Below, piece by piece: positions 39,381 through 46,658 of a stretch of 64,000 bases of DNA. Every line of letters starts with the position of its first letter. Position 1 is the first letter of the stretch. The stretch lies in the NCBI GenBank assembly GCA_017507325.1, contig JAFWBD010000030.1, positions 1-64,000 of the forward strand, written 5' to 3'. This DNA is from Clostridia bacterium (lineage in GTDB: Bacteria; Bacillota; Clostridia; Oscillospirales; SIG627). The translations under genes were made by a program, and so were the position numbers. Under the pieces are notes generated by a model that had not been told where the DNA came from, did not search any database, and was given only the letters and a program-made list of their open reading frames with translations.

Positions 39381-39430
39381 CAAGCACGGTGAAAAAATTC
39401 CGTACGGAAGCCTTCATCGTGCTTGATTTC
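39381..39430. terminator. Terminator of lipoprotein gene 1 (duplicated element, copy 1)
   Basis: CAAGCACG (39381-39388) pairs with CGTGCTTG (39418-39425), with an inner TTCCGTACGGAA. The same element is repeated nearly exactly at 40908-40952. Confidence 0.8.
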
Positions 39431-39446
39431 TTTTTCATTCGTTCTC

Positions 39447-40760
39447 TCAGTTACTGACAAAGGGAACCGAATATGCCAAGACCTTTTCCCCGTTGCCCAA
39501 TTGACAGTAAATCTCGAGGGTATACCCGGGCTCCTCGTACTGACGAAGCAAGCTGTAAGTGGGAAGCACCTTCGACATAGCCGCGGAGCGCTTATAGTGC
39601 CATTCCTGCATCCAGATGTGATTCAATTTTACGTTGCCCTCGGCATCCTTTACCACAGTGTAAACGTCCGACATGGAATAATTGGCCGTCAGGACCTGCG
39701 AGCTGATCTGAAAATAATTGTAGGTTGCGGGCGGATTCGACATGGTGACTACAGCGGGCTCCACCGGATCGGTTCCAAGAAATTCGGCAAAGGTAAAGGG
39801 GATGTAATTGGTATTACGCAATTCTTCAAAGGTATATACCACGTCTACCCCACCCTGAACGATATAGGGAAGGCCATCCTGCTCCCATTTATGGTATTCG
39901 GCATCGGTATACATAACCTGCTCCAAGCAGGTCAGCGTGCTCAATTTGGGATCGATGCTGCCGTCCTCCCGACGAACCACGTTGGCATTCTCTGCGGCCA
40001 TCCGCACGTGTCCTTTGTTAACAATGCCATCCGCCTTTTTGATCAGGGCGTAGCACTCGTACATCGCGCGAGCCGTATGATTTTTGATGATATCATCCGT
40101 GTCGGGGTCACCGTTCTGCCCGAAGGCGGTGATGGTATCGCTGTAATAATAATTACCCACGCGGAGAAAGCCGTTGGCCTGCGTACAATTCTGGGTCCAT
40201 TTTCCACCGGGATTGGAATTGACCACGCGGCTCCAAGCCCAAAGAGCACTGCCCGAGCAGGCATTGCCGAAATAATGGTTGTCCTTCACCAAATCCTTCA
40301 GATGCAGAACGCCGTATTCGGCATCGTAGAAATGGAGCAATCTGTAAATATTGCCGGAGGAGGTGTTGATATAAGGGATGCCTCCCTGCAGTTTTCCTTC
40401 CTCAAAGGTCATGGTCACGTCTTTCGAGCTGGTCACGTAGCTGTAATCCTGATCGGGCAACCATTTAAAGCTCAGCTGCAAACGGAAGAAATCCGTGCAG
40501 ATGGTTCGAAGCTGTTCCTCGGTCATCGAGGAATTGGCAATGGGAATGGCCGCCAGCAGTTCGGGGAGCTTTGCTCCCGTAATGGGATCGTAACCGACGT
40601 ATTTTTCTTCTTCCTCAGTGGACTCGGGAGCGTTTTCGGTCTGAGATTCTCCCGTATTTTCCGAGGTTTGGGTCCCGGTAGCCGAAGGCTCGGCGGGGGT
40701 GCATGAAACCGTCGTCAAAACGGCAAAAACAGCCATCAGCAAGGCAAGGATTCGTTTCAT
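39447..40760 (-). CDS. Lipoprotein, possible NlpC/P60-like cysteine hydrolase (paralogue 1)
   Basis: 437 aa, start at MKRILALLMAVFAVL after AAAGGAG; lipobox TVSC (Cys20) and a Ser/Thr/Glu-rich linker to residue 50. The middle has Cys168 in FGNACSGSALWAWSRV and His251 in VNKGHVRMAAENANVV. A CSG...W motif followed ~80 residues later by GHV is the spacing and order of Cys and His in NlpC/P60-type peptidoglycan hydrolases, but overall similarity is low, so this is an inference. The C-terminal part is beta-rich. It is one of a tandem pair with separate promoters and duplicated terminators. Confidence 0.75.
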   Translation of the reverse strand: MKRILALLMAVFAVLTTVSCTPAEPSATGTQTSENTGESQTENAPESTEEEEKYVGYDPITGAKLPELLAAIPIANSSMTEEQLRTICTDFFRLQLSFKWLPDQDYSYVTSSKDVTMTFEEGKLQGGIPYINTSSGNIYRLLHFYDAEYGVLHLKDLVKDNHYFGNACSGSALWAWSRVVNSNPGGKWTQNCTQANGFLRVGNYYYSDTITAFGQNGDPDTDDIIKNHTARAMYECYALIKKADGIVNKGHVRMAAENANVVRREDGSIDPKLSTLTCLEQVMYTDAEYHKWEQDGLPYIVQGGVDVVYTFEELRNTNYIPFTFAEFLGTDPVEPAVVTMSNPPATYNYFQISSQVLTANYSMSDVYTVVKDAEGNVKLNHIWMQEWHYKRSAAMSKVLPTYSLLRQYEEPGYTLEIYCQLGNGEKVLAYSVPFVSN

Positions 40761-40800
40761 ATTGTCTCCTTTCATTTCCAGTTAATACTGAATTTTGTCC

Positions 40801-40828
40801 ATTATATCACACTTTTTTTGATTTGAAA
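40801..40828 (-). promoter_or_regulatory. Promoter of lipoprotein gene 1
   Basis: Minus-strand -35 TTTCAA (40823-40828), 16-bp spacer, -10 TATAAT (40801-40806). The paralogue has an equivalent box at 42337-42342. Confidence 0.6.
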
Positions 40829-40907
40829 ACAGTAAATTTGCATTTTTCTTGCCAAAGCATAGAAAAATCGTCCCCCGTCAGACTTTTCTTTTGACCTTGC
40901 ACAAAAA

Positions 40908-40957
40908 CAAGCACGGTGAAAAAAATTCCGTACGGAAGCCTTCATCGTGCTTGATTT
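40908..40957. terminator. Terminator of lipoprotein gene 2 (duplicated element, copy 2)
   Basis: CAAGCACG (40908-40915) pairs with CGTGCTTG (40945-40952), with the same inner TTCCGTACGGAA as copy 1. The duplication unit therefore included the terminator. Confidence 0.8.
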
Positions 40958-40974
40958 CTTTTCAATTCGATCTC

Positions 40975-42297
40975 TCAGCGACCGACAATGGGAGCGGTAT
41001 ACACCAAAATTCTCTCGCCGTTCCCCAATTGACAGTACACTTCAAAGGTATGTCCTCCCGCCTCCTCGTACTGGCGCAACACACCGTATGTGGGAAGCAC
41101 GCCCGATTTTGACATTTCCACAGAGCGAACGTAGTGATTTCTCGCCATCCACATATGGTTCAATTTCACGTTACCCTCGGCATCCTTCACCACGCAGTAG
41201 ATATCGGAAATGGGATAATTGGCCTCCACGATCTGGGTGGAAACGTGAAAGTAATTGAATTCGGCGGGCGGATTCTGCATGGTAGCGGTGCCGGGCTCCA
41301 CCGGATCGGTTCCGAGAAATTCGGCAAAGGTGAAGGGAATGTAATTGGTGTTACGCAATTCTGCAAAGGTATAAACCACGTCCACACCGCCCTGAATGAT
41401 ATAGGGAAGGCCGTCCTGATCCTTTTTGTGGTGCTCTGCGGTGGTATACAGAACCTGATCCAAGCAGGTCAGCGTGCTCAATTGGGGATCGATGCTGCCA
41501 TCCTCCCGACGAACCACGTTGGCATTTTCGGCGGCCATCCGCACGTGCCCCGTGCTGACGATGCCGTCCGCCTTCTTTACGAGGGCATAGCACTCATACA
41601 TGGTCTGAGCGGTATGATTTCGCATAATGTCATCCACGTCAATGGCACCGTTTTGTCCGAAGTTGGTGATGGTATCGCTGTAGGTATAATTTCCCAAGCG
41701 GAGAAAACCGTTGACGTGGGTCATGCTATGCGTCCAGTTTCCCTTGGGAACGGTGTTGATCACGCGGCTCCAAGCCCAAAGAGCACTGCCCGAGCAGGCA
41801 TTGCCGAAATAGAGATTGTTGCGCGTCAATTCCTTAAGGCGCAAAACGCCGTGCTCGGCATCATAAAAATGAAGAATTCGGTACAGGTTGCCGGAGGCGG
41901 TGTTGATATAGGGGATGCCGCCCTGCAGCTTTCCCTCCTCATAGGTAATACGCTCGTTTTTCGAGCTGGTCACGTAAGTGTAATCCTGATCGGGCAGCCA
42001 TTTGAAGCTCAGCTGCAAACGGAAGAAATCCACGCAGATGTTGCGAAGCTCTTCCTCGCTCATGGAGGAATTGGCGATGGGAATGGCCGCCAGCAGTTCG
42101 GGGAGCTTTGCTCCGACAATGGGATCGTAACCGACGTATTTTTCATCGTCCGAGGTGGATACGGGTGCTTCTTCGCTTGAAACCTCTTCCGAAGTCTCCT
42201 CTGTTTGGGTCCGGGTGGCCGAAGAGTCGGCAGGGGTACAGGAAACCGTGGTCAAAACGGCAAAAACAGCCATCAGCAAGGCAAGGATTCGTTTCAT
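40975..42297 (-). CDS. Lipoprotein, possible NlpC/P60-like cysteine hydrolase (paralogue 2)
   Basis: 440 aa, start at MKRILALLMAVFAVL. The signal peptide is identical to that of its neighbour, with lipobox TVSC and most of the core shared (GNACSGSALWAWSRV; GHVRMAAENANVVRREDG). The linker after the lipobox and the C-terminus differ most (VTSSKNERITYEEGKLQG against VTSSKDVTMTFEEGKLQG). The putative catalytic Cys and His are kept in both copies, which argues for function. Its own promoter has TATAAT at 42337-42342. Confidence 0.75.
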   Translation of the reverse strand: MKRILALLMAVFAVLTTVSCTPADSSATRTQTEETSEEVSSEEAPVSTSDDEKYVGYDPIVGAKLPELLAAIPIANSSMSEEELRNICVDFFRLQLSFKWLPDQDYTYVTSSKNERITYEEGKLQGGIPYINTASGNLYRILHFYDAEHGVLRLKELTRNNLYFGNACSGSALWAWSRVINTVPKGNWTHSMTHVNGFLRLGNYTYSDTITNFGQNGAIDVDDIMRNHTAQTMYECYALVKKADGIVSTGHVRMAAENANVVRREDGSIDPQLSTLTCLDQVLYTTAEHHKKDQDGLPYIIQGGVDVVYTFAELRNTNYIPFTFAEFLGTDPVEPGTATMQNPPAEFNYFHVSTQIVEANYPISDIYCVVKDAEGNVKLNHMWMARNHYVRSVEMSKSGVLPTYGVLRQYEEAGGHTFEVYCQLGNGERILVYTAPIVGR

Positions 42298-42423
42298 ATT
42301 GTCTCCTTTCGGTTCGATTGATACTGTATTTTTTTCATTATACCATATCATTTTCGATTTGGAAACAGTAAAATTGCTTTTTTCATTTTTTGTCCACAGC
42401 ACCCCAAAATCGGCTTTTCGCCT

Positions 42424-43080
42424 TTAATCCCTCGCCTCGATTCTTCCGTCGGACATATGATATCGCACGTCGGCTTCTCCCGCAATCTCCTCGGAATGGG
42501 TCACCACCACCACGCATTTTCCCTTTTCATGGGCCAAGCGCTTTAGGATGGCAATGATATTTCGGCTGTTTTCATTGTCCAAATTCCCCGTGGGCTCATC
42601 TGCCAAAAGGATGGGGGCATCGGCGGCAATGGCGCGGGCGATGGCAACTCTTTGCTGTTCCCCGCCCGAAAGCTGGGTGGAGCGTTTTTTTCCGTGAAAG
42701 GAAGTGAGCCCCACCGCCCGAAGAAGAGCGTTCACGTCGGGTTTTTCCTTCTTTTTTCCGATTTCATAGGAAAGAAGAATGTTTTCCGCCGCGGTCAATT
42801 GGGGCAACAAATAATAGGCTTGAAAGATCATCCCCACCTGTTCTCTGCGGAATCTGTCCTGATCTGTCTTTGCCAGATCCACACCGTTCACGAACACCGT
42901 CCCGCTCGTTGGCGTATCCAAGCCCGCCATCAAGGAAAGAAGAGTTGTTTTCCCCGAGCCGGAGCGACCGGTGATGGCATAGAGCTTCCCCCCCTCCAGC
43001 TTCAGATCCACACCGCGCAGGGCGTGAACGATCCCCGCTTTGGTAGGATAATCGTAAGTTACATTTGAAACTTCAATCAT
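42424..43080 (-). CDS. ABC transporter ATPase (MacB/LolD type)
   Basis: 218 aa, start at MIEVSNVTYDYPTKAG after AGGAG. Walker A GRSGSGKTT, Q-loop MIFQAYYLLP, signature QLSGGEQQRVAIARA and Walker B ILLADEPTGNLD, all of the type that pairs with FtsX-like permeases. Last gene of the BlaI-BlaR1 operon, 13 bp after the second permease. These complexes usually move lipoproteins, peptides or toxic peptides through mechanical transmission rather than direct transport. No terminator was clearly seen before the next minus-strand gene. Confidence 0.92.
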   Translation of the reverse strand: MIEVSNVTYDYPTKAGIVHALRGVDLKLEGGKLYAITGRSGSGKTTLLSLMAGLDTPTSGTVFVNGVDLAKTDQDRFRREQVGMIFQAYYLLPQLTAAENILLSYEIGKKKEKPDVNALLRAVGLTSFHGKKRSTQLSGGEQQRVAIARAIAADAPILLADEPTGNLDNENSRNIIAILKRLAHEKGKCVVVVTHSEEIAGEADVRYHMSDGRIEARD

Positions 43081-43093
43081 CGTTTTTCTCCTG

Positions 43094-44830
43094 TCAATCG
43101 TAACGCACGCTTCGATATTTCTCAGAAGAGATACTGAGATATTCACACATCAGCTCCAATTCCTTCATCGGAAGAACAAATTCCTCTCCAATGTGGGCCT
43201 CCGGAGGATAGATCCCGCTGACCACAAGTCCCGACGAAATGAGGACCCCCCGATAGAGACCGTTTGCCAAGTCACCCGTGAAAACGAGGGCTTCTCCCAT
43301 TTTCTGAGGCATTAGGGGAATGATTTCCCCCACTCGATAAGGAGAATTTTCGGGAACGTAGCATCGGAAATAATAGCCCGAAAGCTTTCCCGATTCGGAA
43401 AGAATATCCCGTTCAAAGGAAGCGGTATTTTCAAAGCCGTCCACCGCAAAATCGGTCATTCCCAAAAGAGTCATCGCGCCGCTTTGAGACCAAAAAATCT
43501 CCCTGCGAACGCCGATTTTCCCTTCCTCCAAATGATTGGAAACGGCGTGCACTTCTCCGACCAAGCCCTCGTATCCGTCAATTAAAGAAAGGTGAATCTT
43601 GCGCTTCAGGATAATTTCCCGATTGGTTCTTTCGGAAAGATCCTCCTGAGCGTTTGCTTCTTCTACAGCCTCCTCCAGGGCACACCTCTCCACGAAGTGA
43701 AGCGCCGAATCGGAAACGGCACCTCCCGAAAGAAGAGCGGCAGAAAGTGCCGCGATCATAATAAGAACGTACTCTGAAGCAAACATTGCGGAAATTTTCG
43801 CACTCTTCATTCCCAAAACGCGAAGCACCGTGCGCTCGTTTTTTCCGGAAGAAGAAAAGAACCAAATGATCAGCGCCAAAATCACAGTGCCCACGGTCAA
43901 AACAGAAAAGAAAACGATCCGCGACAGCAACAAAATGCCCTCCAAGCCATCTTTCACGGCAAAATATGCACCGTCATTGATGTTGATATCAAATGCGGAG
44001 AGATCAAAACCAAGGCTTTGCGCATCGCGAATGAACACCTCCCCCGATTCCGGCGAGGTCAAAAGAAAATCCAAGCGGATGACCCGATCGGGTCGAGCGG
44101 CAACGGAATCCAAATGGGCGCCGGTAGGCCAAAGCATACACAGATCCCGAAAATAATCCTCTAAGGGAATATAGCAAAGCTCGGTTCCCTTCCCGCTTTC
44201 ATAGATACCGACCACGCGGTAAAGGGAGAAGCTCCCGCTGTTTTCAAAATCAAAGGTAACCTTGTCGCCGAGGGCAAGACCGTAGCGCCGTGCCGTATTC
44301 CGTGAAAGAATGATGGCTCGGGTGCCGCCACGCATTTCCTCAGAGGTGAAAAGCCGCCCCTCCACGATTTTACTCTCTCCGCTATAAAATGCTTCGGTCA
44401 AAACGAGATTGTTCACCGCCTGCACCGAAACACGATCATCCACCGAAATCACCTCGCGGGGAGGCTCTGCCAAAAATTCTTCATCGGGAAGCTTTCCCAT
44501 CAATTCCTCTTGGGCTAAGCTCCCAGCGGGCAAGGTGATATTCCACGCCTTGACGGAGCCGGACTGAGAAAGAGGATACGCTTCGTCCACCGTAAGATAG
44601 CGGGAGGAAGGAATCTTTACGCCATCGGGGCTAATGACCGCGCGGCGGGTAATCGTTGCCACGGCAGGATAATTCTTCTCCAGATCCGTCAGAGCAGATT
44701 CCACTCTCTGACTGATGGTCTGACAGACGATCATCACCAAAGCGGTAAGCAGCGCGATGAAAAAGCAAAGAAAGCTCCGGAGAGGCCGCCGAATCACGTT
44801 TCGAAAAACGAAATGAAAAAACACCTTCAA
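43094..44830 (-). CDS. FtsX/MacB-type ABC permease 2
   Basis: 578 aa from a TTG start at 44830 that overlaps the upstream stop by 4 bp (TTGA). The longer in-frame stretch before it is antisense to the first permease. One membrane segment near residue 20 (FLCFFIALLTALVMIVCQTI), a ~260-residue extracytoplasmic domain, two or three segments around 300-400 (GILLLSRIVFFSVLTVGTVI; YVLIMIAALSAALLSGG) and a second long external region to the C-terminus. The final membrane helix typical of MacB is not clearly visible, so the topology is unusual. It pairs with the adjacent ATPase and permease 1. Confidence 0.8.
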   Translation of the reverse strand: MKVFFHFVFRNVIRRPLRSFLCFFIALLTALVMIVCQTISQRVESALTDLEKNYPAVATITRRAVISPDGVKIPSSRYLTVDEAYPLSQSGSVKAWNITLPAGSLAQEELMGKLPDEEFLAEPPREVISVDDRVSVQAVNNLVLTEAFYSGESKIVEGRLFTSEEMRGGTRAIILSRNTARRYGLALGDKVTFDFENSGSFSLYRVVGIYESGKGTELCYIPLEDYFRDLCMLWPTGAHLDSVAARPDRVIRLDFLLTSPESGEVFIRDAQSLGFDLSAFDININDGAYFAVKDGLEGILLLSRIVFFSVLTVGTVILALIIWFFSSSGKNERTVLRVLGMKSAKISAMFASEYVLIMIAALSAALLSGGAVSDSALHFVERCALEEAVEEANAQEDLSERTNREIILKRKIHLSLIDGYEGLVGEVHAVSNHLEEGKIGVRREIFWSQSGAMTLLGMTDFAVDGFENTASFERDILSESGKLSGYYFRCYVPENSPYRVGEIIPLMPQKMGEALVFTGDLANGLYRGVLISSGLVVSGIYPPEAHIGEEFVLPMKELELMCEYLSISSEKYRSVRYD

Positions 44831-46191
44831 TGAACCGCACCCCCCATCTCCTTCATTACCTCGACCTTTCGGATTTTCCAACCGGAGAACAGCGAAACGC
44901 CGAAAATCACAGAAAAAGATAGGGCAAGCGTTTGCATCAGGGCCGAATAAATCAGGTAAGAAAGCCGCCCGAAAAACAACTGCTCCGTTTGTGCATAAAC
45001 AGAATCCTTGAAAAAAACACTCTTTACCGAGGTTCCCGAAAAGGAAAGAGCATCCAAGCGGATCGCGCGGTCGATAGCGGGACCGATCTGATACCAAAGC
45101 GGTAGAACGATTCCCACCGCCACAACAAAGGAAACCAAAAAAAGAAATAGATTTTCTCGAAAAAACAGAGCGGTAACACTTCTTCGCTTGGCTCCCAAGG
45201 CACAATAGATCCCGACTTCCCGAGATCGGGAATTCAGATCCCAGAATAAAATTCCAAAGAGAGCGGCACCAAAGCAAAAGATCACGGAAAGCATTGCAAT
45301 TTCAATGGATTGAGAAAATTTTACCAAAGACTTGGCCTCCTCCTCGGGGGAAAAGCTCTTCAGTCCAAAAACGTTCACTCCGCAAAGATGCCCGATTTCC
45401 GTCAATCTGCTTTCCAGCTTTTCAATCAAAGCATCGGAGGGATTTTTCAACTCAAGATAAAGCTTTGCTAACAAAACACTCTCACTTTGAATGGATTGAA
45501 GCCCGTGTTCATACACGGAAAGCGGAAGGTAGATTTGATTTTCCGCCATCTCGTAAGGAAAGCGCGCAGTGGATTCCGTTGGCACCGCGCTTTCCCACAG
45601 GCCGGCAATCACAAGAGAGCAGGCGCTCTCACGATTTGTATCGGGATCAAGGAGGATAAGCTCCACCGTGTCGTGAAGCTTCCATCCGTTACATTCCGCC
45701 AAGGCCTTGGAAATCACCACTGCCCGTCGTTTTTCCACATGATATTCCTCAAGGATTCCCGTTCCTTCCGAGATCCATTTTTCGCCGGAATAAAAATCCT
45801 TCACCATGTCGGTGGAGGTGACGGCAGAGAGTGAAAAAGGCTTCAGCTTCATCGATTGGGCAATGCTCTCGTCCGCACCGCTTTGTTCCTTCAGAAAAAT
45901 ACTTTTGGCTCCGGAAATATCACATAGCCCGACGGCGACGGCGTGATAGGATAAAATACAATCAAAGCTGTCGGATATCAATTCTGCCTTTGCCAAGGAA
46001 AAGCCTTGGGAGGCGTCGTGGAATTCCACTTGCACAGAGGAGGCCATCGGTCCGACAAGGCGTACCGCATTTTCCCGTGCCAAGTCGTACAGAAGAAAGA
46101 TGAAAAGTAAGGCGGCGGAAAGAAAAAGGAACAAAACGCCCAGAAGAAGGCTTCTTTTCGGCATACGAATCAAATTTTTAAGCGCCTTCAT
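44827..46191 (-). CDS. FtsX/MacB-type ABC permease 1
   Basis: 454 aa, start at MKALKNLIRMPKRSLLLGVL after TTGGAG; it overlaps the previous gene by 4 bp (ATGA). One N-terminal segment (LLLGVLFLFLSAALLFIFLL), a ~230-residue external domain, then three C-terminal segments (IEIAMLSVIFCFGAALFGIL; LFLFLVSFVVAVGIVLPLWY; LIYSALMQTLALSFSVIFGV) around the cytoplasmic coupling loop LGAKRRSVTALFFRE. This is the classic four-segment FtsX layout. Half of the transporter driven by the ATPase at 42424. Confidence 0.88.
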   Translation of the reverse strand: MKALKNLIRMPKRSLLLGVLFLFLSAALLFIFLLYDLARENAVRLVGPMASSVQVEFHDASQGFSLAKAELISDSFDCILSYHAVAVGLCDISGAKSIFLKEQSGADESIAQSMKLKPFSLSAVTSTDMVKDFYSGEKWISEGTGILEEYHVEKRRAVVISKALAECNGWKLHDTVELILLDPDTNRESACSLVIAGLWESAVPTESTARFPYEMAENQIYLPLSVYEHGLQSIQSESVLLAKLYLELKNPSDALIEKLESRLTEIGHLCGVNVFGLKSFSPEEEAKSLVKFSQSIEIAMLSVIFCFGAALFGILFWDLNSRSREVGIYCALGAKRRSVTALFFRENLFLFLVSFVVAVGIVLPLWYQIGPAIDRAIRLDALSFSGTSVKSVFFKDSVYAQTEQLFFGRLSYLIYSALMQTLALSFSVIFGVSLFSGWKIRKVEVMKEMGGAVH

Positions 46192-46658
46192 TCGTTTTTC
46201 TCCAAATACTTTTCGGCTCCCTCGCAGCTTCCATCGCAATTGGGATCCTGAGACGAGCAAAGAACGTATTCCCTTCCTGCTGACGTGGGAAGATCGGGAG
46301 AGGCGGCACAAACGCAGCACACCCATTTGGCAACGTGGTAGTAAGCTCCGTTATACGCAAGCTTCGTCTTTTCTTCCAGGCCGAGAAAGGTTCTGGTGTG
46401 ACGCTCGAATTTTTCCCCGAATTCACAGGGAATTCCGTTTGGAACGCTGATGCACTGCACGTGGTGATACTCGTGGCGGGGATACGCATCGTAAAGATCG
46501 TAATTGGCTGCGGGGGAATACTGCAGGATATGATGCCCGCAGGAAAAGGCTTCCCCTCCCGAAAGGGAATCAAACACCCCTTCCTTCTCTCCTATGGAGG
46601 AACAAGAAAAGAGACTTGCCGTGCACAGCACAAGAACAAGGCACAAATTGCGTTTCAT
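46188..46658 (-). CDS. Cys/His-rich lipoprotein
   Basis: 156 aa. The signal peptide ends in lipobox SLFSC (Cys19). The mature part has nine Cys and several His: CGHH, YHHVQC, WVCCVCAAS and NCDGSCEGAEK. The same order (C-x-H, then H/C, then CxxC, then C and N-x-DC-x-G-x-C-x-G) appears at the C-terminus of the BlaR1-like protein two genes upstream, so both probably share a small metal-binding or disulfide-bonded extracytoplasmic domain. Overlaps of 4 bp on both sides (ATGA at 46655 and 46188) place it firmly in the operon. No family recognised. Confidence 0.8.
   Translation of the reverse strand: MKRNLCLVLVLCTASLFSCSSIGEKEGVFDSLSGGEAFSCGHHILQYSPAANYDLYDAYPRHEYHHVQCISVPNGIPCEFGEKFERHTRTFLGLEEKTKLAYNGAYYHVAKWVCCVCAASPDLPTSAGREYVLCSSQDPNCDGSCEGAEKYLEKNE

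Follow-up and report, generated by a model that had tools for sequence, protein, structure and literature searches.

A lineage-expanded family of putative NlpC/P60-like cysteine hydrolases in gut-associated Clostridia

Introduction

The closest described counterpart of the genes considered in this study is RflaF_05439 of Ruminococcus flavefaciens, a fibre degrader of the herbivore gut, which carries tandem NlpC/P60 modules on an X-dockerin (PDB 4EYZ; PMC3573020). According to that report, its fold was not recognisable by sequence, and its active site comprises a Cys109/His215/Gln230 triad together with Tyr71. Here we describe two adjacent genes, A and B, located in a window of 64,000 nucleotides (the whole stretch of DNA that was analysed; contig JAFWBD010000030.1, assembly GCA_017507325.1) from a Clostridia bacterium. 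A preliminary description had regarded their products as duplicated lipoproteins and possibly remote NlpC/P60-like hydrolases. On the evidence given below, and with a probability of roughly two in three, they belong to a new, lineage-expanded family of NlpC/P60-like cysteine hydrolases with a predicted fold of that class, which would act on short, likely peptidoglycan-type, peptides. If this is right, the chemistry of the family is ordinary, and it is the scale and the deployment that are unusual.

RflaF_05439 has in common with the new family an NlpC/P60 fold hidden from sequence, a Cys/His/Gln site with an additional Tyr, tandem modules, dockerins and a herbivore-gut setting, and the Tyr-Cys spacing is 38 both there (Tyr71, Cys109) and in gene A. 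However, RflaF_05439 is one gene, whereas the new family comprises dozens, mostly single-domain lipoproteins bearing an immunoglobulin (Ig)-like domain, along with leaderless chains. The canonical NlpC/P60 proteins, e.g., Acd24020 (7cfl), 3h41, and CwlO (8wt3), have the core fold predicted for the new family, the same Tyr-Cys-His order, and the PY-GG motif, which aligns by profile. They differ in that their catalytic domain (PF00877) spans about 100 residues, in contrast to about 279 in the new family, which is not matched by PF00877 and in which the Cys-His spacing is longer (85 versus 52). CHAP-type lysins (5d74 and 8h1i; PF05257) share a papain-like fold with the predicted domain, but a profile of 23 CHAP sequences aligns with the new family no better than an unrelated pair does. 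Lastly, Ig/fn3-like surface domains resemble residues 334-437 of gene A by predicted structure (Z up to 7.8), without a confident Pfam match.

Predicted fold and active site

Structure prediction was carried out on two alignments, A3, which contains the A/B pair and 48 domains from named genome loci (n = 50), and A4, which is its catalytic part. AlphaFold2 returned confident models for both residues 55-437 (A3; predicted local distance difference test (pLDDT) 93.2, predicted template modelling score (pTM) 0.92) and the catalytic part, residues 55-333 (A4; pLDDT 90.2, pTM 0.90). In the predicted model, helix 114-122 (model numbering) starts at the cysteine and strand 197-201 starts at the histidine, which is the arrangement of a papain-like core, where the Cys opens a helix and the His opens the strand that follows.

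When the structural candidates for the catalytic domain were re-ranked with VIA-align 2, the nearest solved structures were wall hydrolases of the NlpC/P60 and related kinds, the best being 7cfl (Z 9.7, 118/127 residues, 2.4 Å). Ranks 1-11 (7cfl, 3h41, 6biq, 8wt3, 5d74, 3m1u, 5d76, 8h1i, 4f88, 5udn, and 6sqx; Z 9.7 to 5.3) are in each case an NlpC/P60 protein, a wall endopeptidase, or a phage lysin. Z values were 9.5 for 3h41, 9.4 for 6biq, 9.0 for CwlO (8wt3), 7.5 for Ly7917 (5d74), and 7.1 for PlyGRCS (8h1i); by the program's own note a Z below 8 can reflect a common arrangement, and four chains reached at least 8. Ranks 12-17 are taken by a Staphylococcus amidase entry (4.9), AvrRpt2 (4.2), and calpains and a deubiquitinase (3.2-3.1), and the first row of a different kind appears at rank 18 (Z 3.0). 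With the whole model, the streptococcal-type lysin Ly7917 (5d74) ranks second (Z 7.7) and is matched outside the Ig/fn3-like part. The transglutaminase rows cover only model residues 279-382. The entries 4EYZ, 2HBW and 2P1G, which PMC3573020 names, are absent from the VIA-align rows, a list that cannot exclude them as structural relatives.

The residues expected of an NlpC/P60 superfamily active site (a Cys, a His and a third polar residue, with a Tyr ahead of the Cys) are found throughout the family. Among 122 non-identical domains long enough to include the core (from 162, after 7 that were too short and 33 identical ones were left out; two rows of this set are truncated or extended readings of genes represented by another row), Cys168 is present in 121, His251 in 121, Tyr130 in 120 and Gln281 in 118. 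The exceptions at Tyr130 are two Phe, and those at Gln281 are two Cys, one His and one Glu; a histidine is also the third residue in CwlT (Cys-His-His-Tyr), as given in PMC6403190. Asp244 (122/122) and Arg85 (121/122, with one gap) are equally near-invariant. A stricter set of 113 domains gave similar counts (Cys 112, His 112, Tyr 111, Gln 110). By class, before hand correction of the classes, all four residues are intact in 62/64 lipoprotein, 29/30 leaderless, and 17/19 other secreted domains. The single degenerate copy is the first domain of a leaderless triple (L041:3400-7005, G000:C49), in which Tyr130 is changed to Phe and both Cys168 and His251 are replaced while Gln281 is kept; the other two domains of the triple retain Tyr130, Cys168, and His251. 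Judged by its sequence, the first domain appears to be a pseudo-enzyme domain. The retention of the four residues elsewhere, and the joint loss of Tyr, Cys and His in the one degenerate copy, indicate an active site under selection.

In contrast to the catalytic residues, the position before Cys168 is variable (Gln 41, Asp 23, Ala 18, His 12, Ser 10, Thr 8, and others among the 122). The median Cys-His spacing is 85 in the 107 domains in which both could be located versus 52 in 26 canonical sequences, one of whose values (-5) is a motif mismatch. The Tyr-Cys spacing has a median of 39 and a range of 35-66; residues 130 and 168 of gene A are 38 apart.

Profile comparisons

Profile-profile alignment with hhalign also pointed to NlpC/P60 proteins. 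The partners were 30 NlpC/P60 sequences from the same order, 23 CHAP sequences, a transglutaminase profile, and 10 column shuffles of A4. A4 scored 32.1 against NlpC/P60 (E 2.7e-4), whereas its column shuffles reached at most 20.3; the positive control, CHAP against NlpC/P60, scored 62.9. The alignment pairs GIPYINTSSG with TPYRYGG (the PY-GG motif), NACSG with DCSG, and KGHVRM with SHVGIY, so that Cys168 and His251 fall on the catalytic Cys and His of NlpC/P60. Transglutaminases (PF01841) were rejected as a candidate, as the alignment (15.7, E 0.14) covers columns 23-42 only (20 columns) and neither the Cys nor the His.

The assignment to the NlpC/P60-like class, which had been put forward as a remote relationship on the basis of the order and spacing of a Cys-His pair, is supported by the nearest structures, by the profile pairing, and by the near-invariance of Cys and His together with one joint loss. 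Only indirectly do these results imply that Cys168 and His251 lie close to each other in the predicted fold. Several results weigh against it. Pfam at E ≤ 10 gave no family for the A or B proteins, PF00877 included; PF00877 matched none of the 50 A3 members (19 families matched in all) and was absent among the best 25 of 34 families listed for 73 relatives (alignment A1). Foldseek found no significant match for the catalytic domain (best E 0.89 in PDB and 0.26 in BFVD), and VIA-align 2 was run over 999 of Foldseek's 1000 candidates, so that it re-ranks a list already chosen. The hhalign probability for the NlpC/P60 alignment is 42%, and the score of A4 against CHAP (16.6, shuffles at most 13.4) is no better than that of CHAP against transglutaminase (16.3). 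A D-C-[SATG] motif occurs in 29/30 canonical NlpC/P60 sequences, but the Asp before the Cys is kept in only 23/122 domains of the new family; the canonical specificity therefore need not apply. The family thus lies outside PF00877 proper, with neither a profile match nor a regular Asp before the Cys. According to PMC3573020, the purified second module of the R. flavefaciens protein (NlpC/P60_2) showed no protease activity, which warns against assuming an ordinary substrate. Among the neighbour genes examined, none offers a link to peptidoglycan.

PF05257 (CHAP) matched 2/73 relatives, with a best E of 0.00099 (among the best 25 of 34 families listed), and none of the 50 A3 members. For the C-terminal domain, weak Ig-type matches were obtained in A3 (FlgD_ig in 4/50, best E 0.084; fn3 in 2/50, best E 0.032), and no Pfam Ig or fn3 model matched with confidence in the 50 members. 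NCBIfam gave only weak matches, the best of which for A and B covers the signal peptide, and none of its families occurred in more than 3/50 A3 members. PDB sequence searches returned chance-level matches only (four chains at E ≤ 10 with the A1 profile, 4EYZ not among them). No description of the family was found in the open-licence PMC literature, judged by titles and abstract openings.

Copy number, distribution and phylogeny

The preliminary description was confined to the A/B pair, which turns out to be part of a family of dozens, some copies of which have no export signal. In the genome that carries the pair (63% complete, 1.64 Mb), 29 matches are spread over 18 genes; 24 of them are domains and 5 are C-terminal pieces. 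Within the genus, each of the six genomes has 7 to 32 matches, and a relative of 1.5 Mb has 32 on one contig. Beyond the genus, matches become rare. In the rest of the taxonomic family, one of 16 genomes (G017) has a match. In a sample of the order, 18/295 genomes match, 7 of them being the genus genomes and G017; among the other 11, the core is covered only in G490, G502, G514, G642, and G649, and the remainder have short, mostly C-terminal, pieces. One relative in G642 (L110:3650-4387; G642:C8:98646-99365) has an in-frame stop and is apparently a decaying copy. A phylum sample of 398 genomes yielded only the genome of A and B and one weak match, with two internal stops, in a distant member of the phylum (L067; G260:C1:969377-969676), which may be a remnant or due to chance. 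In both the order and the phylum samples, at most five or six candidates were scored per genome, and the figures are numbers of genomes, not of copies. A single-protein scan of genome contigs gave no match, although genomes very near to that of A and B may be left out there. The twelve named loci are from uncultured Clostridia or Oscillospiraceae, and the sources of several are roe deer colon, goat cecum, rabbit ('Lapin'), sheep rectum, and water buffalo cecum. Neither 50,697 phage records nor 72,556 plasmid records contained a match, and two scans of viral contigs gave none either; an origin from phages, plasmids or viruses was rejected on these grounds.

A quick tree of 120 domains, in which 54/117 inner branches are starred and 32 open, showed that copies group by genome. 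Labelling by genome requires 28 changes overall versus 79.5 when shuffled; the 31 domains of G005 need 2 changes versus 27.6, and the 24 of G000 need 5 versus 22.1. The nine domains of L064 lie on one side of a branch (98). G004 needs 8 changes for 15 rows and G001 needs 6 for 9 rows, and a 113-row version of the tree gave the same picture. The A/B pair sits in a starred set of 16 rows together with 14 leaderless domains, 12 from its own genome and 2 from L054. To judge by this clustering, the arrays in several lineages expanded for the most part independently of one another, in addition to some older copies that are shared.

Canonical NlpC/P60 proteins are scarce in the taxonomic family, where no genome of the 22 has more than 2 matches (range 0 to 2), and none were found in the genome of A and B; 8/16 other family genomes show neither these nor the new family. 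That the new family replaced the canonical one is unsupported, as canonical copies are scarce family-wide.

Secreted and leaderless forms

By a rule-based classification, 12 of the 18 genes in the genome of A and B encode single-domain lipoproteins, while the other six are leaderless and hold 12 domains (3, 3, 2, 2, 1, and 1); in four of the leaderless genes an AAGGAG lies 7 nt ahead of the ATG. Among the 110 genes on the stretches covered, from which duplicate records had been removed, the same rule classed 68 as lipoproteins, each with a single domain, 21 as other secreted proteins and 21 as leaderless. The rule can err, as with two long L064 fusion proteins counted as lipoproteins. Hand correction moved L050_5004 and L047_6594 to the lipoproteins and L125_11512 to the leaderless genes and set aside L119 (contig end), which left 70, 19, and 20, respectively. 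Nine leaderless genes have at least two domain segments, two of them (L054) being a partial and a full domain. On the tree, the leaderless or secreted state changes at least 10 times, 9 of which are forced by starred branches; the two forms have interconverted repeatedly.

When 20 fused parts were compared with Pfam, six were above the family cut-off. Among the other secreted relatives, modules include SLH (L112, L117), dockerin (L124), and Ig-like (L109, L111) domains. Two adjacent secreted relatives of the same genus end in type I dockerins (L124:135-3930, G001:C172), which suggests display on a cellulosome-like scaffold in this genus; dockerins as such occur in 20/22 family genomes, with 1 to 18 each. 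Elsewhere, three relatives with N-terminal glycine-rich repeat fusions lie just after six tandem lipoproteins (L064:11105-18764), and one of these three, compared with Pfam, matched no family. A lipoprotein relative in G017 (L048:1151-2926, G017:C24) has a PEVKPEVE-type repeat linker of about 150 residues between signal and domain.

There was no consistent partner gene in the 13 stretches listed. AraC regulators lie near the A/B pair and one leaderless triple, and genes for UxaC, GH20, DUF4838, and a short-chain dehydrogenase lie near some copies; of ten neighbours compared with Pfam, two gave no match.

Proposed function and alternative explanations

In the mechanism we propose, a lipid anchor and an acidic linker would hold the A and B enzymes outside the cell, where the papain-like NlpC/P60-fold domain is followed by an Ig/fn3-like domain that may act as a spacer or in binding. 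By analogy with the fold class, Cys168 would attack the amide carbon, His251, oriented by Gln281, would serve as the base and shuttle the proton, and Tyr130 would contribute to the oxyanion hole. The bonds cut would be amide bonds of short peptides at the cell surface, peptidoglycan-type peptides being the most likely. Because the family has multiplied largely separately in several genomes, its members probably have different specificities; the catalytic residues are constant, and the residue before the Cys varies. Leaderless copies, which often form two- or three-domain chains, may carry out this reaction on intracellular peptides, or they may be exported by some unrecognised route. The purpose may be to feed on, or to compete through, the cell walls of neighbours in the herbivore gut. 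More tentatively, and with a probability below even, the genus as a whole may operate a two-compartment system, in which diversified surface lipoproteins cut non-self peptidoglycan peptides and the leaderless chains process the products inside or are exported by such a route.

It is noteworthy that a papain-like fold can serve other chemistries. The same fold and active site might thus act on something other than peptidoglycan, such as dietary or host peptides, glycoprotein linkages, or acyl groups. The varying residue before the Cys fits this alternative, and the dockerin fusions of the same genus and the UxaC, GH20, and DUF4838 neighbours suggest a plant-fibre setting. However, most of the solved structures that come nearest are hydrolases of the cell wall, and the neighbour genes vary between copies in the stretches examined; we consider such a substrate rather improbable, if worth keeping in mind. 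Considerably less probable is that the surface and leaderless copies are antibacterial weapons against the walls of neighbours and that the expansion reflects an arms race. The clustering of copies by genome and the existence of leaderless multi-domain chains would agree with it, and a paper on polymorphic toxins (PMC3482391) mentions NlpC, but no toxin-delivery domain was recognised by Pfam in the 20 fused parts, the ratio of nonsynonymous (dN) to synonymous (dS) divergence between A and B (~0.29) is well under 1, and no relatives were found in phages, plasmids or viral contigs. Much the same doubt attaches to housekeeping autolysins of the organism itself. Given the scarcity of canonical NlpC/P60 in the family, the new copies may serve wall growth; against this, a 63%-complete genome that has 24 domains, 12 of which lie in leaderless genes, seems to be equipped beyond the needs of growth, and half of the 16 other family genomes show neither kind. 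That the proteins are non-catalytic surface binders (adhesins or receptors) keeping only the fold is very unlikely: the Ig-like C-terminal domain, some Ig-like and SLH fusions, and the Foldseek search with the full model against PDB (adhesin and fn3 domains at the top, the list filled by Ig-like domains) point that way, but Tyr, Cys, His and Gln are almost always retained and the sole degenerate copy lost the first three jointly.

If the NlpC/P60-like hydrolase family that we favour is active, its natural diversity could be used to study how specificity shifts in a papain-like hydrolase of the wall, and eating or attacking walls may be a main trade of these herbivore-gut bacteria. In our judgement, 24 domains in an incomplete 1.6-Mb genome, and the 32 matches on one contig of the 1.5-Mb relative, represent a heavy investment in one type of enzyme for small genomes. 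The leaderless chains raise the question of what role a wall-type hydrolase has when it carries no export signal.

The tandem gene pair and its surroundings

The features of the A/B pair are collected in Table 1. The two proteins are identical at 332/438 aligned positions (76%), including the first 23 residues, which contain the lipobox TVSC; both have a signal peptide with this lipobox, in line with the suggestion that they act outside the cell. The motifs CSGSALWAW and GHVRMAAEN are unchanged in both, as had been noted, while the acidic linker (approximately residues 24-52) and the C-terminus have drifted, also as had been noted. Nucleotide identity over 60-codon segments is 0.86-0.89 at best, drops to 0.73 for the segment that starts at codon 181, within the catalytic domain, and is 0.70-0.73 beyond codon 330. 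The flanks are repeated too (upstream blocks 89/124 bases the same, downstream blocks 76/84). Because dN is 0.158 and dS 0.552 (ratio ~0.29), the pair is an old duplication under purifying selection and not an echo of assembly. Chance similarity and assembly duplication were ruled out by this dS and by the arrays in other genomes.

The claim that gene, promoter, and terminator are all duplicated was borne out by the protein identity, the repeated promoter-like sites and ribosome-binding sites, and the folded hairpins. The AAGGAG element is 5 nt from the ATG in both genes. Promoter-like sites number 9 in the region versus 5.4 ± 2.1 in shuffles, a scan that is weak by itself. Both terminator hairpins came from direct folding, where 0/200 shuffles were equally good for either; a terminator search of the region gave 6 sites versus 6.0 expected, with neither hairpin among them.

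Table 1. Features of genes A and B in the 64,000-nucleotide window
Feature	Position	Strand	Basis
Gene A, 437-aa lipoprotein (signal peptide with lipobox, acidic linker, NlpC/P60-like domain, Ig-like domain)	39447..40760	(-)	
Gene A promoter-like site TTTTCA-17-TATAAT, TG ahead of second hexamer	40801..40829	(-)	consensus match only
Gene A ribosome-binding site AAGGAG	40766..40771	(-)	sequence
Gene A signal peptide with lipobox TVSC, lipid-bearing Cys20	40701..40760	(-)	sequence
Gene A NlpC/P60-like catalytic domain, residues 55-333	39762..40598	(-)	predicted model, profile alignment
Gene A Tyr130, presumed oxyanion-hole Tyr	40371..40373	(-)	120/122 domains; role after PMC3573020
Gene A Cys168, presumed nucleophile	40257..40259	(-)	121/122; pairs with NlpC/P60 Cys
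Gene A His251, presumed catalytic His	40008..40010	(-)	121/122; pairs with NlpC/P60 His
Gene A Gln281, presumed third polar triad residue	39918..39920	(-)	118/122
Gene A Ig/fn3-like domain, residues 334-437	39450..39761	(-)	VIA-align Z up to 7.8
Gene A terminator hairpin	39381..39425	(-)	direct folding, z -4.75
Gene B, 440-aa tandem copy of gene A	40975..42297	(-)	
Gene B promoter-like site TTTCCA-17-TATAAT, TG ahead of second hexamer	42337..42365	(-)	consensus match only
Gene B ribosome-binding site AAGGAG	42303..42308	(-)	sequence
Gene B NlpC/P60-like catalytic domain	41299..42135	(-)	alignment row
Gene B Cys168	41794..41796	(-)	alignment
Gene B His251	41545..41547	(-)	alignment
Gene B Ig-like domain	40978..41298	(-)	alignment with gene A
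Gene B terminator hairpin	40908..40953	(-)	direct folding, z -5.16

The pair is immediately preceded, on its own strand, by genes for an ABC ATPase and a MacB/FtsX-type permease (42424-46326), with a further permease-like open reading frame nearby.

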